DNA from: Bacteroidota bacterium
Lineage (GTDB): Bacteria; Bacteroidota; Bacteroidia; 2-12-FULL-35-15
Direction: 5' to 3'
Assembly (NCBI GenBank): GCA_029237775.1
Contig: JAQZBR010000004.1
Location: 806,001 to 870,000 of the forward strand
DNA: 64,000 bases
The notes beneath the pieces are model-generated. The model was given only the letters and a program-made list of their open reading frames with translations, did no database searches and was not told the origin of the DNA. Positions 9,696-20,603 of the stretch are shown here, piece by piece; the first letter of the stretch is position 1; the number at the start of each line of letters is the position of its first letter. The position numbers were made by a program, and so were the translations under genes.

Positions 9696-9769
9696 TCCCT
9701 CTTAGCTCAGCTGGTTAGAGCATCTGACTGTTAATCAGAGGGTCGCTGGTTCAAGTCCAGCAGAGGGAG
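9696..9769 (+). tRNA. tRNA-Asn (GTT)
   Basis: A 74-base tRNA. The acceptor stem TCCCTCT pairs with AGAGGGA, the D-arm is GCTCAGCTGGTTAGAGC, the anticodon stem TCTGA/TCAGA encloses the loop CTGTTAA with anticodon GTT at 9730-9732, and the T-arm is CTGGTTCAAGTCCAG. CCA is not encoded (GC follows). It is the integration target of the adjacent element, whose insertion leaves the tRNA intact because the element carries the same 3' half. Confidence 0.95.
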
Positions 9770-9770
9770 C
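9721..9770 (+). repeat. attL-side direct repeat (tRNA-Asn 3' half)
   Basis: 50-bp exact match with 20421-20470, starting in the anticodon stem and running through the T-arm and acceptor end plus one base. The identity stops abruptly on both sides (g/t before, a/g after), as expected for a site-specific recombination duplication. Confidence 0.9.
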
Positions 9771-9773
9771 AAA

Positions 9774-9811
9774 GCAAATCCCCATAGCCATTAGGTTGTG
9801 GGGATTTTTGC
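9774..9811 (+). terminator. Terminator downstream of tRNA-Asn, supplied by the island
   Basis: ATCCCCA (9778-9784) pairs with TGGGGAT (9799-9805) and is followed by TTTTG; flanking GCAAA and TTTTGC extend the stem. It lies inside the island, so after integration it replaces the tRNA's original terminator, which now sits at 20475. Confidence 0.75.
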
Positions 9812-9863
9812 GTTTTATTGCTTTCCTCTTTAAAATGTCTAATAATGACGTTTTAAGCCTATC

Positions 9864-9884
9864 ACTTGCAAATAACTTGCACAA
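9864..9884 (+). repeat. Left subterminal repeat, candidate integrase arm site
   Basis: ACTTGCA-AATA-ACTTGCA-CAA: two ACTTGCA units with a third CTTGCA shortly after at about 9890. The 21-base unit matches 20347-20367 in the same orientation at 20 of 21 bases. Confidence 0.6.
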
Positions 9885-9922
9885 CTATTCTTGCAGAGTT
9901 TTTAGCCATAAAACCTAAGAAC

Positions 9923-11131
9923 ATGGCTACTATTAAGCTCACCATTGACGCCAGAAGACCCTACAATGATGGAAGATGCCCAATTGTCTTCAGGCTTACA
10001 TCAGGGACAAAAAGCACGTCTATTCCATCAGGTGTAAAGCTATTTCCTAAAGATTGGGATCGGATAAAGCTTAAGATCTTAAAAACTCATCCCGATTACC
10101 GTGATTTAAACCTGCTTCTAAAAGAAAAGCTTTTTAAGTTGGAAGAAAAATTATTAAAAGTAACCGCAACTGGAGACGAGAAAGACATTTCCGAGTTAAA
10201 AGAAGCTTTACTCAAGGAAGAAACCCGAAACAAAGTAAAATTTAAGTCTTTTGCTGAAAATGAGATTAGGAATTTGCGAGATCAAGGAAGATTTGGTAAT
10301 GCACAGTCTTATGAAACAGCAGTGAACAGATTATTAAAGTTTGCTGGTGAAGAAATTAATCTTGACCAGATTGACTTCACTTTACTTTCTGATTTTGATA
10401 CTGACCTAATAAAGAACAAGCTATCCCGCAACAGCGTGGCCGTCTATATGAGGGAAATACGAGCTCTGATGAACAAGGCAATTCATAAAAAGCTGTTAGA
10501 GCCAAATCAATATCCTTTTAACAGCTACAAGATCAAAACAGAAAAGACGGTAAGCAGGGCAGTTAACAAGAATACTTTAAAAGAGCTCTGGAAAGTTCAG
10601 CTGAAAGATCATACTCCTTTGTGGCATAGTAGAAATATCTTCTTTCTCATTTTTAACTTAATCGGAATTTCTTTCATTGATCTTGCTTTGCTGACTTCAG
10701 AAAACTTACAAGGTGATAGAATAATTTATAGGCGCAGGAAAACGGGAAAAATGTATAGCATCAAATTAACCGCAGAGGCACTGAGAATTATTTCTCTGTA
10801 CAAGAAAGAGAATAGTAAATATCTAATCTCGCTATTCAAACTTGATTTTATCCCAATAGAAAGAGAAAGGCAAGAAGTTGGGCTCCGCTTACAAACCTGC
10901 AATAAGTGGCTTAAGAAGCTTGGAAGGCAATGTAAAATTCCAATTCCATTAACCACATATGTTGCAAGATATAGCTGGGCAAATATTGCAAAGTCTTTAG
11001 GTTTTCCAAAAGATCAGATTGCTGAAGCTTTGGGACATGAGTATGGTAATCGTATTACGGGCATATACTTGGATAATTATGGGAGTGAACTAATTGATGA
11101 GATGAATAGAAAGGTTACTGGGGATAGCTAA
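9923..11131 (+). CDS. Tyrosine recombinase (integrase) of the Bacteroidota mobile-element type
   Basis: A 402-aa site-specific recombinase, next to attL and reading into the element. It has an arm-binding N-terminal region (KLTIDARRPYNDGRCPIVFRL), a SAM-like core-binding domain and a C-terminal catalytic domain. TTYVARYSWA holds the box-II arginine, LGHEYGNRITGIYLDNY holds the box-II histidine and, by position, the nucleophile Tyr in GIYL. The usual box-I arginine before G.SF.DLA is Ile here (LIGISFIDLALL). The CTnDOT integrase is also known to lack this arginine, so the enzyme may still be active. ATG 9923 is preferred over an upstream frame start at 9866 because it gives the family N-terminus and leaves the candidate arm site noncoding. 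Confidence 0.92.
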   Translation: MATIKLTIDARRPYNDGRCPIVFRLTSGTKSTSIPSGVKLFPKDWDRIKLKILKTHPDYRDLNLLLKEKLFKLEEKLLKVTATGDEKDISELKEALLKEETRNKVKFKSFAENEIRNLRDQGRFGNAQSYETAVNRLLKFAGEEINLDQIDFTLLSDFDTDLIKNKLSRNSVAVYMREIRALMNKAIHKKLLEPNQYPFNSYKIKTEKTVSRAVNKNTLKELWKVQLKDHTPLWHSRNIFFLIFNLIGISFIDLALLTSENLQGDRIIYRRRKTGKMYSIKLTAEALRIISLYKKENSKYLISLFKLDFIPIERERQEVGLRLQTCNKWLKKLGRQCKIPIPLTTYVARYSWANIAKSLGFPKDQIAEALGHEYGNRITGIYLDNYGSELIDEMNRKVTGDS

Positions 11132-15353: not shown

Positions 15354-16718
15354 ATGTATAACCAAAAACCTCTTTCAAGAAAGGAAATTATTGACTTGTT
15401 GGCAAGTCAAGGGTTTCGAAAAGATTACAATGGTACTGGTGGATGTATCTTCAAAAAAATCAATGAAAATTTAATTGAGGTCACAAACCCAATAAAAATT
15501 AAGGATTTTCTTATCAAATATTTCAAGGCAAATAAAGATAAGTTAGAACAGTTTTATGCTAAGGCTGATCATCTTGTAGATTCTAAAGCCCTTGAATTAC
15601 TTCCATCATTGGAAGTAACTTATTTAAAAGACACAAAAGTTCAAGGTTTTTTCCTTTTTAAGAATTGCTTGATAAAAGTTTCTAAAGAAGGTTTCGAGGC
15701 GACATCTTTAAATAATATTGAGCCGAACATCAAATTTAAGCGTGAGATTTCACACGATCTTTTTGAACCACAGAAAGAATCTGAGTTTGAACGTTTTTTA
15801 TTTCTCGCAATGGGAAAAGATGATAGACGCCTGCAATCCCTTAAGTCTTCTATTGGATATCTACTTCACGATTTTTATGACCCATCTGAAAGAAAAGCAG
15901 TCATTTATATTGATGAAGAAATAAATGAATCAGGAGAAGCTAATGGAGGGACAGGTAAATCAATTGTTGCTATGGCAATTAGTAGAATGCTTGGAGATGC
16001 ACCGTATGTTATTAATGAAGATGGCAGAAATTTTAACCCGCAAAAAGGGTTTGCTTTTCAACAACTAACTTCTGAAACCAAGTTATTAATATTCAACGAT
16101 ACTTCTTCAACATTTGCTTTTAACAGACTAATATCTGCATTAACGGATGGAATTACTGTTGAAAAAAAGTACAAAGATGCTTTTCGTTTAAGTGGAAGTA
16201 GTCTACCTAAGGTATTAATAACAACAAATTTCCTTCCTGAAGGTGATTTAGGATACACAAATGAAAGAAGAAGATTTGAAGTCGAATTTGCCCCATATTT
16301 TGGGAAAGAAAGAAGTCCAAGAGGTGAATTTGGTCATCTACTTTTTGAGGAGTGGCATAACGAGGAATGGAATGCTTTTTACTGTTTTATGCTTGACTGC
16401 CTTCGACTATATTTAGCGAAAGGATTAATACATGCACCTAATATTAACCTTTTTAAAAAGCAAATAATCCGGCTAGGTGGAATGGATGTGCTAATATTTC
16501 TCGATGGTTACTTCCAAGCACTATTTCCGACTGGTGAAATAAGAGCATGTAAAATCACTAAAGGGGAATTATATTCCAAATTTAAGACAACTCACCCTAA
16601 CTCTAATGTAACAAACACTAAGCTACCGAAGCTTGTGAAAATTTACTTAGATGGTTTAAAAATTAAAAATAAAGAATATAATGTAGGAGGTGTAAGAGGC
16701 TTTGAAATTATGGTTTAA
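15354..16718 (+). CDS. SF3-type helicase / primase-helicase family protein
   Basis: A 454-aa protein with a C-terminal AAA-like superfamily-3 helicase core. Walker A is GGTGKS (198-203), Walker B is LLIFND (244-249), and the sensor-1 asparagine is Asn292 in ITTNF. The N-terminal ~180 residues are unassigned, and no DnaG/AEP primase active site is visible. Such proteins start replication of phages, plasmids and satellites, and are common in Bacteroidota integrated elements. Its presence suggests the excised island can replicate. Iteron-like repeats lie just downstream (16721) and a dyad upstream (15231), both possible target sites. Confidence 0.75.
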   Translation: MYNQKPLSRKEIIDLLASQGFRKDYNGTGGCIFKKINENLIEVTNPIKIKDFLIKYFKANKDKLEQFYAKADHLVDSKALELLPSLEVTYLKDTKVQGFFLFKNCLIKVSKEGFEATSLNNIEPNIKFKREISHDLFEPQKESEFERFLFLAMGKDDRRLQSLKSSIGYLLHDFYDPSERKAVIYIDEEINESGEANGGTGKSIVAMAISRMLGDAPYVINEDGRNFNPQKGFAFQQLTSETKLLIFNDTSSTFAFNRLISALTDGITVEKKYKDAFRLSGSSLPKVLITTNFLPEGDLGYTNERRRFEVEFAPYFGKERSPRGEFGHLLFEEWHNEEWNAFYCFMLDCLRLYLAKGLIHAPNINLFKKQIIRLGGMDVLIFLDGYFQALFPTGEIRACKITKGELYSKFKTTHPNSNVTNTKLPKLVKIYLDGLKIKNKEYNVGGVRGFEIMV

Positions 16719-16720
16719 TA

Positions 16721-16806
16721 TGTGCGCAAGTGCGCATTGTTTATACTGTTATTTAAATAAAGAAAATTATATATATAGTATCAATGGTGCGCACATTGTG
16801 CACAAT
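16721..16806. repeat. Iteron-like GTGCGCA cluster around an AT-rich core
   Basis: GTGCGCA occurs at 16722 and 16730 (8-bp period). GTGCGCAC (palindrome) is at 16787-16794 and ATTGTGCACAAT (12-bp palindrome) at 16795-16806. The ~48 bases between the two groups are nearly all A/T. The arrangement resembles a replication origin, or an operator controlling the cyclase-like gene that follows. Confidence 0.55.
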
Positions 16807-16912
16807 TAAATAGGGGATAAAACCAATGAGAATTTAAAGGTTACATAGAAATATAATTTCCCCCTTATCGTCTGCAGTAGTCGGAAATGAAATATCTTTG
16901 AAACAAAAGTTT

Positions 16913-17611
16913 ATGCAAGAAAAATTAAGCTGGGAACCAACATCTAATAGATTTGTTGCTTTTTTTGATATTATGGGATTCAAAGACCTTGTATTAAAAA
17001 CAGACCATAATAAAATTGTTGAGTTACTAGAAGGGCTTTCGCTAAAAAGAGAAGAACTCAATCTATTAAATAATCATTCACCTGAAGATGAGAATTTGAA
17101 AATGGGAGAAACTAGGTCGTTTACTTTTTCAGATTCAATTATCTTTTTCTCTAAAGGTGAAACGTTGGAAGACATTAAAAAAATTCTAATAGACTGTTTC
17201 TTTTTACAAAGGGAAGCATTAAGGCTAGAAATTCCTATTAAAGGAGCCCTCTCATATGGAAAAATCACTTTAAAAATTGATAACTCTTTGTACTTCGGAC
17301 AGCCAATAATTGATGCGTTTCTTTTGCAGGAGGATTTACATCTATATTCAATAATCGCGGATAATCACTTTGAGAAGAAAGGGAAAGAACTTCTTCATAA
17401 CTCAAGTATGTGGGATTTTGACAACCTGTTTGAATTTTATAAGACTCCTCTTAAATCAGGTAGAGCATATCACTACATTGCGAAACCATCGGAAAATGAT
17501 AAAAAGACTTATATAACATGCCTAAACAACCTATATTTAACGGTTTCAGGCAAACCTAGACAGTACATTGATAATTCATTGGATTTTTATAATTCGGTAT
17601 ACACAAAATAA
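16913..17611 (+). CDS. Class III nucleotide-cyclase-like protein
   Basis: A 232-aa soluble protein. RFVAFFDIMGFKDLV (Asp19) resembles the first metal-binding strand of class III cyclases (hhhhDhxGF), SFTFSDSIIFFS (Asp74) matches the second metal Asp region, and IPIKGALSYGKITL matches the RxGxxxG strand that follows. The protein is thus likely to have the cyclase/GGDEF-like palm fold, and may be catalytic. In bacteria some stand-alone class III-like cyclases make cCMP or cUMP in Pycsar antiphage systems; that link is only an analogy here. ATG 16913 is preferred, with a TTG at 16898 as alternative. It follows the GTGCGCA cluster. Confidence 0.55.
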   Translation: MQEKLSWEPTSNRFVAFFDIMGFKDLVLKTDHNKIVELLEGLSLKREELNLLNNHSPEDENLKMGETRSFTFSDSIIFFSKGETLEDIKKILIDCFFLQREALRLEIPIKGALSYGKITLKIDNSLYFGQPIIDAFLLQEDLHLYSIIADNHFEKKGKELLHNSSMWDFDNLFEFYKTPLKSGRAYHYIAKPSENDKKTYITCLNNLYLTVSGKPRQYIDNSLDFYNSVYTK

Positions 17612-17667: not shown

Positions 17668-17898
17668 TTAAATTTCTTTCTTTTGAAAGGAAAAAAGTTG
17701 AGATATCGGTATATCAATAGCCTCACTTATTTTAAGCAAGGTTTCCACGGTAATATTTGACTTTCCTTTTTCTATTCGGGTTAGATTACCTCTTTCTATT
17801 TCACATCTATTGGCAACTTCGGTTTGCGTGAGCTTTTGCTTAAGCCGATGCTTTGCTATGCTTTCTCCTAATTGTCGCAAAAATTCTTCCTTATTCAT
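17668..17898 (-). CDS. XRE-family helix-turn-helix regulator
   Basis: A 76-aa repressor-type protein that is almost entirely one HTH_3 domain: LGESIAKHRLKQKLTQTEVANRCEIERGNLTRIEKGKSNITVETLLKISEAIDIPISQLF. The recognition helix is around IERGNLTRIEKG. It is in reverse orientation between the cyclase-like gene and the secreted-protein gene, a usual position for the master regulator of a small element. The likely operators are the palindromes at 16787-16806 or the region upstream of its own start. Confidence 0.9.
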   Translation of the reverse strand: MNKEEFLRQLGESIAKHRLKQKLTQTEVANRCEIERGNLTRIEKGKSNITVETLLKISEAIDIPISQLFSFQKKEI

Positions 17899-17978
17899 TG
17901 GTTGGATAAATCCCTACCAAAGTGTGCTTTTTTAAACAAGAAGTTGCTATCATATGCGATAGCAAGAAGATATCCCGT

Positions 17979-19679: not shown

Positions 19680-20120
19680 ATGGAAAAACTATGCGAAATT
19701 ACTGTGAACTACAGTAGCAAAATTAAAAAATCATTACTACCAAAAATTTCTACATCTGATGATGCAGAGAAGCTTTTTAAAGAGGTTTGGAGCAACAGGC
19801 TGGAATTTGTCGAGGAAGTGTATTTATTGCTCTTAAATCGTGCAAATAAGGTTTTAGGGTTTACTAAGATTTCAGAAGGTGGGAGCTCTGGGACTGTAGT
19901 TGAAACTAAAGTTGTTTTCCAAACTCTCTTGAAAGGCAATGCAAGCTCGTTTATCATGGCTCATAATCATCCCTCAGGTAACTTGAAGCCATCAGATTCA
20001 GATATTAGGCTTACCAAGAACATCAAAGAGGCTGGGAGGATTATGGATATCCCGCTTGTAGATCACATTATTATCAGCGATGAAGGTTATTACAGTTTTG
20101 CCGATGAAGGTTTGTTGTAG
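19680..20120 (+). CDS. RadC-like JAB/MPN+ domain protein
   Basis: A 146-aa protein consisting of the JAB domain only. The metal motif is His95-Asn-His97-Pro-Ser-Gly with Asp108, and an upstream Glu lies in EFVEEVYLLLLN (about 42-52). The N-terminal HhH region of chromosomal RadC is absent. Such short RadC-like proteins are typical passengers of Bacteroidota mobile elements and of phage islands; their true role is unresolved. It lies near the right end of the island. Confidence 0.85.
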   Translation: MEKLCEITVNYSSKIKKSLLPKISTSDDAEKLFKEVWSNRLEFVEEVYLLLLNRANKVLGFTKISEGGSSGTVVETKVVFQTLLKGNASSFIMAHNHPSGNLKPSDSDIRLTKNIKEAGRIMDIPLVDHIIISDEGYYSFADEGLL

Positions 20121-20346: not shown

Positions 20347-20367
20347 ACTTGCAAATAAATTGCACAA
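20347..20367 (+). repeat. Right subterminal repeat, candidate integrase arm site
   Basis: ACTTGCA-AATA-AATTGCA-CAA, matching 9864-9884 in the same orientation with one mismatch, 53 bases inside attR. Confidence 0.6.
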
Positions 20368-20420: not shown

Positions 20421-20470
20421 CATCTGACTGTTAATCAGAGGGTCGCTGGTTCAAGTCCAGCAGAGGGAGC
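20421..20470 (+). repeat. attR-side direct repeat (tRNA-Asn 3' half)
   Basis: Exact 50-bp copy of 9721-9770. There is no 5' half or acceptor partner upstream, so this is a tRNA remnant and not a functional gene. The preceding bases hold a hairpin GCCCA/TGGGC (20390-20406). Confidence 0.9.
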
Positions 20471-20474
20471 GAAA

Positions 20475-20505
20475 AGCCATCAGAAATGATTGGCTTTTTT
20501 GTTTT
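20475..20505 (+). terminator. Original tRNA-Asn terminator, displaced by the island
   Basis: AGCCATC and GATTGGCT flank a short loop, followed by TTTTTGTTTT. It sits directly after attR, where the intact tRNA would end before integration. The same 31 bases recur at 20573-20603. Confidence 0.65.
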
Positions 20506-20557
20506 ATATAGTTAGTCTATTAATGAGGTGTTGGTTCATTTGACAGCTATCGGGAAC

Positions 20558-20603
20558 AGCAGAGGAAGCAAGAGCCATCAGAAATGATTGGCTTTTTTGT
20601 TTT
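20558..20603 (+). repeat. Degenerate second copy of tRNA end plus terminator
   Basis: AGCAGAGGAAGCA resembles the tRNA acceptor end AGCAGAGGGAGC, and the following 31 bases (20573-20603) are identical to 20475-20505. It looks like a decayed second tRNA-Asn tail or an older integration scar. Confidence 0.55.

Follow-up and report, generated by a model that had tools for sequence, protein, structure and literature searches.

A hairpin of facing tandem repeats at the 3' end of an SF3 helicase gene: a candidate replication origin of a Bacteroidota island integrated at tRNA-Asn

In PICIs, the origin directly follows rep on its 3' side, where two iteron sets flank an AT-rich region, and the rep-ori segment drives plasmid replication; phage P4 alpha and its ori site are named in the same paper (PMC6092414). 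For both SaPI Rep and SCCmec Cch2, it is the C-terminal domain that binds iterons downstream of the protein's own gene (PMC7581432). Replication of the archaeal plasmid pRN1 requires a 100-bp stem-loop that lies 54 bp past its SF3-helicase rep gene (orf904) and is kept in structure though not conserved in sequence; according to its authors, bacteriophages have a stem-loop like it, and the pRN1 terminator could be mutated without loss of replication (PMC4234260). Here we describe a hairpin that probably serves as replication origin for an integrative island of 10.7 kb at tRNA-Asn, with the island's own SF3 helicase as proposed initiator. A comparable pair in phage P4 is a satellite initiator helicase (alpha) with its cognate origin (ori and crr). 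P4 has ori and crr repeats, and its alpha protein, unlike the island helicase, is a primase-helicase fusion.

The window, that is, the whole stretch of 64 kb analysed here, holds the island between the two copies of a 53-bp tRNA-Asn direct repeat. Its features, in window positions, are as follows.

9721 to 9773, + strand: attL, 3' part of tRNA-Asn (one copy of the 53-bp direct repeat, with 98% identity to attR)
9866 to 11131, + strand: tyrosine integrase of the island (Phage_int_SAM_5, Arm-DNA-bind_5)
15354 to 16718, + strand: SF3 helicase of 454 aa, proposed initiator (DUF5906, phrog_28855)
16713 to 16811, + strand: imperfect hairpin or inverted iteron array, proposed replication origin (fold z, fold rank, helicase stop codon)
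16722 to 16728, + strand: iteron 1, GTGCGCA (sequence, word count)
16730 to 16736, + strand: iteron 2, GTGCGCA, 8 bp after iteron 1 (sequence, word count)
16740 to 16781, no strand: AT-rich core of 42 bp with 4 G/C, where melting is proposed (sequence)
16787 to 16794, - strand: iteron 3, GTGCGCAC, palindromic, with GTGCGCA on both strands (sequence, word count)
16795 to 16806, - strand: iteron 4, ATTGTGCACAAT, which contains an inverted, degenerate GTGCACA spaced 9 bp from iteron 3 (one mismatch to GTGCGCA)
16809 to 16822, + strand: AATAGGGGATAAAA, tentative counterpart of a TAGGGGG(G)TATA run (likeness by eye only)
16898 to 17611: cyclase-like gene (phrog_23933)
17668 to 17898, - strand: XRE regulator (HTH_3)
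17944 to 17965, no strand: inverted repeat TTGCTATC-N6-GATAGCAA ahead of the XRE gene, the likelier operator for this regulator (also scored terminator-like)
19680 to 20120, + strand: RadC-family gene of the island
20421 to 20473, + strand: attR, duplicated 3' part of tRNA-Asn (direct repeat)

The other island genes are an Mrr-like nuclease gene, a DUF6414 gene and two genes without assignment. Scans with Pfam, PHROGs, NCBIfam and PADLOC recognised no primase in the island and gave no significant match for the two genes that precede the helicase. Nor did the scans recognise a gene for a terminase or for capsid size, and Rfam matched tRNAs only.

Copies of GTGCGCA start at 16722 and 16730, GTGCGCAC at 16787 and ATTGTGCACAAT at 16795, precisely where an original prediction made from the letters of this DNA had placed them. 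The interval separating the two groups, which it gave as about 48 A/T-rich bases, measures 50 bp (16737-16786) and is indeed AT-rich, with 4 G/C in the 42 bp of its core. The word as such is unremarkable in frequency (5 matches in 64 kb as opposed to 4.0 expected from shuffles); its clustering is what stands out, with four of the five matches, at three sites, inside 73 bp. The original prediction overlooked that the two groups are complementary and form the arms of a single imperfect hairpin of 99 nt (16713-16811), whose 5' edge falls within the helicase stop codon. The supposed palindrome ATTGTGCACAAT can be read as a fourth, degenerate word (GTGCACA), so that the hairpin runs from two tandem GTGCGCA (8 bp apart, + strand) through the 42-bp core to an inverted GTGCGCA and GTGCACA (9 bp apart, - strand). 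As + strand RNA it folds at -39.9 kcal/mol (z -7.5, equalled by 0 of 200 shuffles), the - strand reaches z -5.3, and folding as single-stranded DNA gives z -4.8 and -4.0. In a G+C-corrected ranking of 100-nt segments from the two strands of the 64-kb window, the hairpin came second only to the 3' end of tRNA-Asn. It is single-copy in its own genome, and the GC skew of the island does not turn clearly at the repeats.

DUF5906 is the sole Pfam match of the 454-aa helicase, in which we found neither a primase domain nor an archaeo-eukaryotic prim-pol domain of the pRN1 type. An AlphaFold2 model built from a 38-sequence alignment (pLDDT 80.6) predicts that its C-terminus (residues 366-454, pLDDT about 92) runs helix-strand-helix-helix-strand-strand, which is a winged-helix pattern. 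Compared by Foldseek and VIA-align, the predicted fold resembles the SaPI5 primase-helicase (PDB 7OLA and 7OM0, Z 19.4 and 18.9), and the same tools also group the model with poxvirus D5/E5 and AsfvPrimPol. A sequence search of the solved structures in PDB returned no relevant match, SaPI Rep included. The SaPI Rep fold and C-terminal DNA-binding domain typical of PICI rep-ori are displayed by the predicted model. The closest relatives of the helicase share about 30-39% identity; none above about 39% was found, so the exact repeats cannot be traced by alignment. Scans with the window helicase gave no relative among viral sequences and one distant match among genome contigs.

With the PICI/SaPI rep-ori plan, the locus shares its setting on an integrase-bearing island (a tyrosine integrase and a specific attachment site, seen as the 53-bp tRNA-Asn duplication), an SF3-type candidate initiator helicase with a SaPI5-like predicted fold, a putative origin immediately 3' of the initiator gene (the hairpin starts in the helicase stop codon) and two iteron sets on either side of an AT-rich region (here 16740-16781). 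Unlike PICI/SaPI elements, it has only two words per side, a degenerate and a palindromic one among the four, and no recognised terminase or capsid-size genes; we found no primase domain, and PDB sequence searches do not match its helicase to SaPI Rep. Anatomy and predicted fold match the PICI-type plan; we do not classify the whole element as a PICI. The SCCmec Cch2 putative origin also has iterons downstream of the helicase gene, bound in that case by the C-terminal domain (PMC7581432), yet consists of three direct repeats; its word AAGTG is matched by the AAGTG in the island's AAGTGCGCA, a GTG likeness that may be due to chance. As in pRN1, a stem-loop of about 100 bp (stem of 21 nt and loop of 58 nt in pRN1; 99 nt with an AT-rich loop here) lies just 3' of a gene for an SF3 helicase with a winged helix, and in pRN1 as among the loci related to the island, structure is kept and sequence is not. 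The pRN1 Rep, however, has a prim-pol domain and its binding motifs were not identified by its authors, whereas the island stem is built of tandem words and belongs to a different domain of life. The hairpin would, to our minds, be a further example of a known origin type rather than a new one.

Plasmid and phage nucleotide searches for the hairpin found none, and the sequences flanking the helicase genes of relatives cannot be aligned with the window; it is the arrangement that recurs. The original prediction had proposed comparison with related islands and would have been given up if the repeats were not conserved. The words themselves are indeed not conserved in related helicase loci, but the tandem-plus-inverted plan and its place beside the helicase gene are kept, and taking non-conservation as a refutation would mislead since the sequence turns over fast. 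One relative (L031) has two copies of AAGTGTTGC, an AT-rich core and two inverted copies; this array, which reads AAGTGTTGCAAGTGTTG, then an AT-rich stretch and an inverted copy, lies 96 bp past its helicase gene and has a perfect stem of 18 bp. Another (L071) has a stem-loop of about 95 nt that starts 8 bp ahead of the stop, a third (L371) has AAGTTGTCCAAGTTGTCC facing inverted copies within 170 bp, and the plan is also found beside the helicase genes of L072 and L370.

Scoring for a tandem word (8-12 bp start to start) with its complement within 200 nt, we found the array in 10 of 36 genome and plasmid loci, the window included, within 280 bp at the 3' end of the helicase gene, as against 103 of 2939 control windows (3.5%; Fisher p 4.6e-7, a guide only, as the rule was framed after the window and L031 had been seen and the relatives are not fully independent); the remaining 26 had no such array in the scored 3' window. 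We scored two groups of related viral contigs, 80 per group, by the same rule; over the 560 bp that precede the helicase gene, 33 of 64 and 25 of 70 phage loci were positive (three windows each), with 1.7% and 1.6% of single control windows positive. The helicase 3' side was negative in both viral groups, and a first test for four-copy repeats 3' of phage helicases had been negative because the phage array lies upstream. Strict inverted repeats in the L031-like phages occur almost only beside the helicase gene start. Upstream of the helicase in these phages (L080-L159), the words vary by phage group (GTGTACTA, GTGTTGCG, GTGCGAAG), and a G-run TATA core, TAGGGGGGGGTATA, is often retained inside the loop. 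Related phages and plasmids have a TAGGGGG(G)TATA run within their repeats or next to them. The exact double word GTGCGCANGTGCGCA is present in 5 of 395 class-sample genomes, our own included, and in at least 120 viral stretches.

The Salinibacter plasmids pSR14 and pSR31 (the pair L240 and L241) each carry six GTG-word copies in both orientations directly 3' of a primase-helicase gene; their annotation shows no other evident replication gene. Their iterons differ (GTGGTCCA vs GTGTCACA) within an otherwise alignable region, and their helicases are 98-99% identical in the core, whereas roughly every second one of the final 24 or so residues is different; the N-terminal primase part is also somewhat different. 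Judged from these sequences, the pair fits a scheme in which the iteron may be read by the helicase C-terminal domain, and it offers a natural specificity pair for asking which helicase residues do so. Among the phages, iteron class showed no clear relation to C-terminal sequence or identity. The GC skew of pSR14 and pSR31 does not turn clearly at the repeats.

Could the hairpin instead be a transcription terminator or an mRNA 3'-end structure that stops or protects the helicase transcript ahead of the cyclase-like gene? Its start in the helicase stop codon fits this, as does its stronger folding as + strand RNA (z -7.5, versus -5.3 for the - strand), and a short stem in its left arm (16720-16737) followed by TTGTTTATA scores terminator-like. 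Against this, the long stem has no T run after it, tandem words and a long AT-rich loop are not terminator features, and the phage counterpart, being upstream of the helicase gene, is unable to terminate that gene. We therefore regard a terminator as unlikely, noting that, by analogy with pRN1, terminator and origin roles could coexist. That the repeats arose by chance in AT-rich DNA is the least credible explanation of all: by our own estimate, three 7-mers in 73 bp are only marginal across all possible 7-mers, but none of 200 shuffles folds as well, the fold is the second most extreme in 64 kb, and the plan recurs in relatives.

The original prediction had left the choice between a replication origin and an operator for the XRE regulator, and of the two it is the origin that has gained ground. 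Palindromic words and an XRE gene do share one island, yet the hairpin is 0.9 kb from XRE and at the helicase 3' end rather than at an XRE promoter, its arrangement recurs beside the helicase genes of relatives, and XRE has a different, unrelated perfect inverted repeat (TTGCTATC-N6-GATAGCAA, 17944-17965) just upstream at its own 5' side, which makes the operator role very improbable. Just as improbable is a regulatory element of the cyclase-like gene, whose ORF starts 87 bp downstream of the hairpin: four relatives of this gene in other genomes, standing without a helicase, have no upstream hairpin (best z +1.7 to -2.0).

In support of the hairpin as the probable origin are its position and architecture, the comparison of about 200 related loci and the close published precedents. 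We envisage that the island helicase would use its predicted C-terminal winged helix to bind the pair of tandem GTGCGCA-type words on either side, and would assemble as two facing rings over the 42-bp AT-rich core, which it would melt before unwinding outward, and that host primase and polymerase would copy the excised circle. More tentatively, and with the odds rather against it, the 'two iteron sets' of PICI and the 'stem-loop' of pRN1 might be one architecture, common to the SF3 initiators of Bacteroidota phages, plasmids and islands as well as archaeal plasmids, as facing tandem iterons necessarily form a stem-loop; iteron sequence would then turn over together with the helicase C-terminal wing. 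Our findings provide a candidate origin and initiator pair, open to experiment, for an integrative island whose gene families point to a host in Bacteroidota, and extend the published PICI origin plan to this phylum. For other SF3-helicase elements with non-conserved repeats, they suggest a search rule: facing tandem words around an AT-rich core beside the helicase gene.

Several smaller observations concern the cargo and ends of the island. The cyclase-like gene has an FFDIMGFKDLV motif, stands alone in 4 other class-sample genomes (32-45% identity) and, beside the Mrr-like and DUF6414 genes, is possibly defence cargo. A 21-bp repeat (95%), TTGCAAATAA-TTGCACAA, is found inside both ends (9864-9884 and 20347-20367), and these copies could be arm-type sites of the integrase. 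Beyond attR, a 34-bp repeat (20472-20505 and 20570-20603) and a third tRNA-Asn end piece of 15 bp (20557-20571) look as if left as the scar of an earlier integration. The most extreme fold in the window (9761-9860) covers the tRNA-Asn end and, next to it, a GC-rich hairpin that carries a T run and is probably the terminator of the tRNA.
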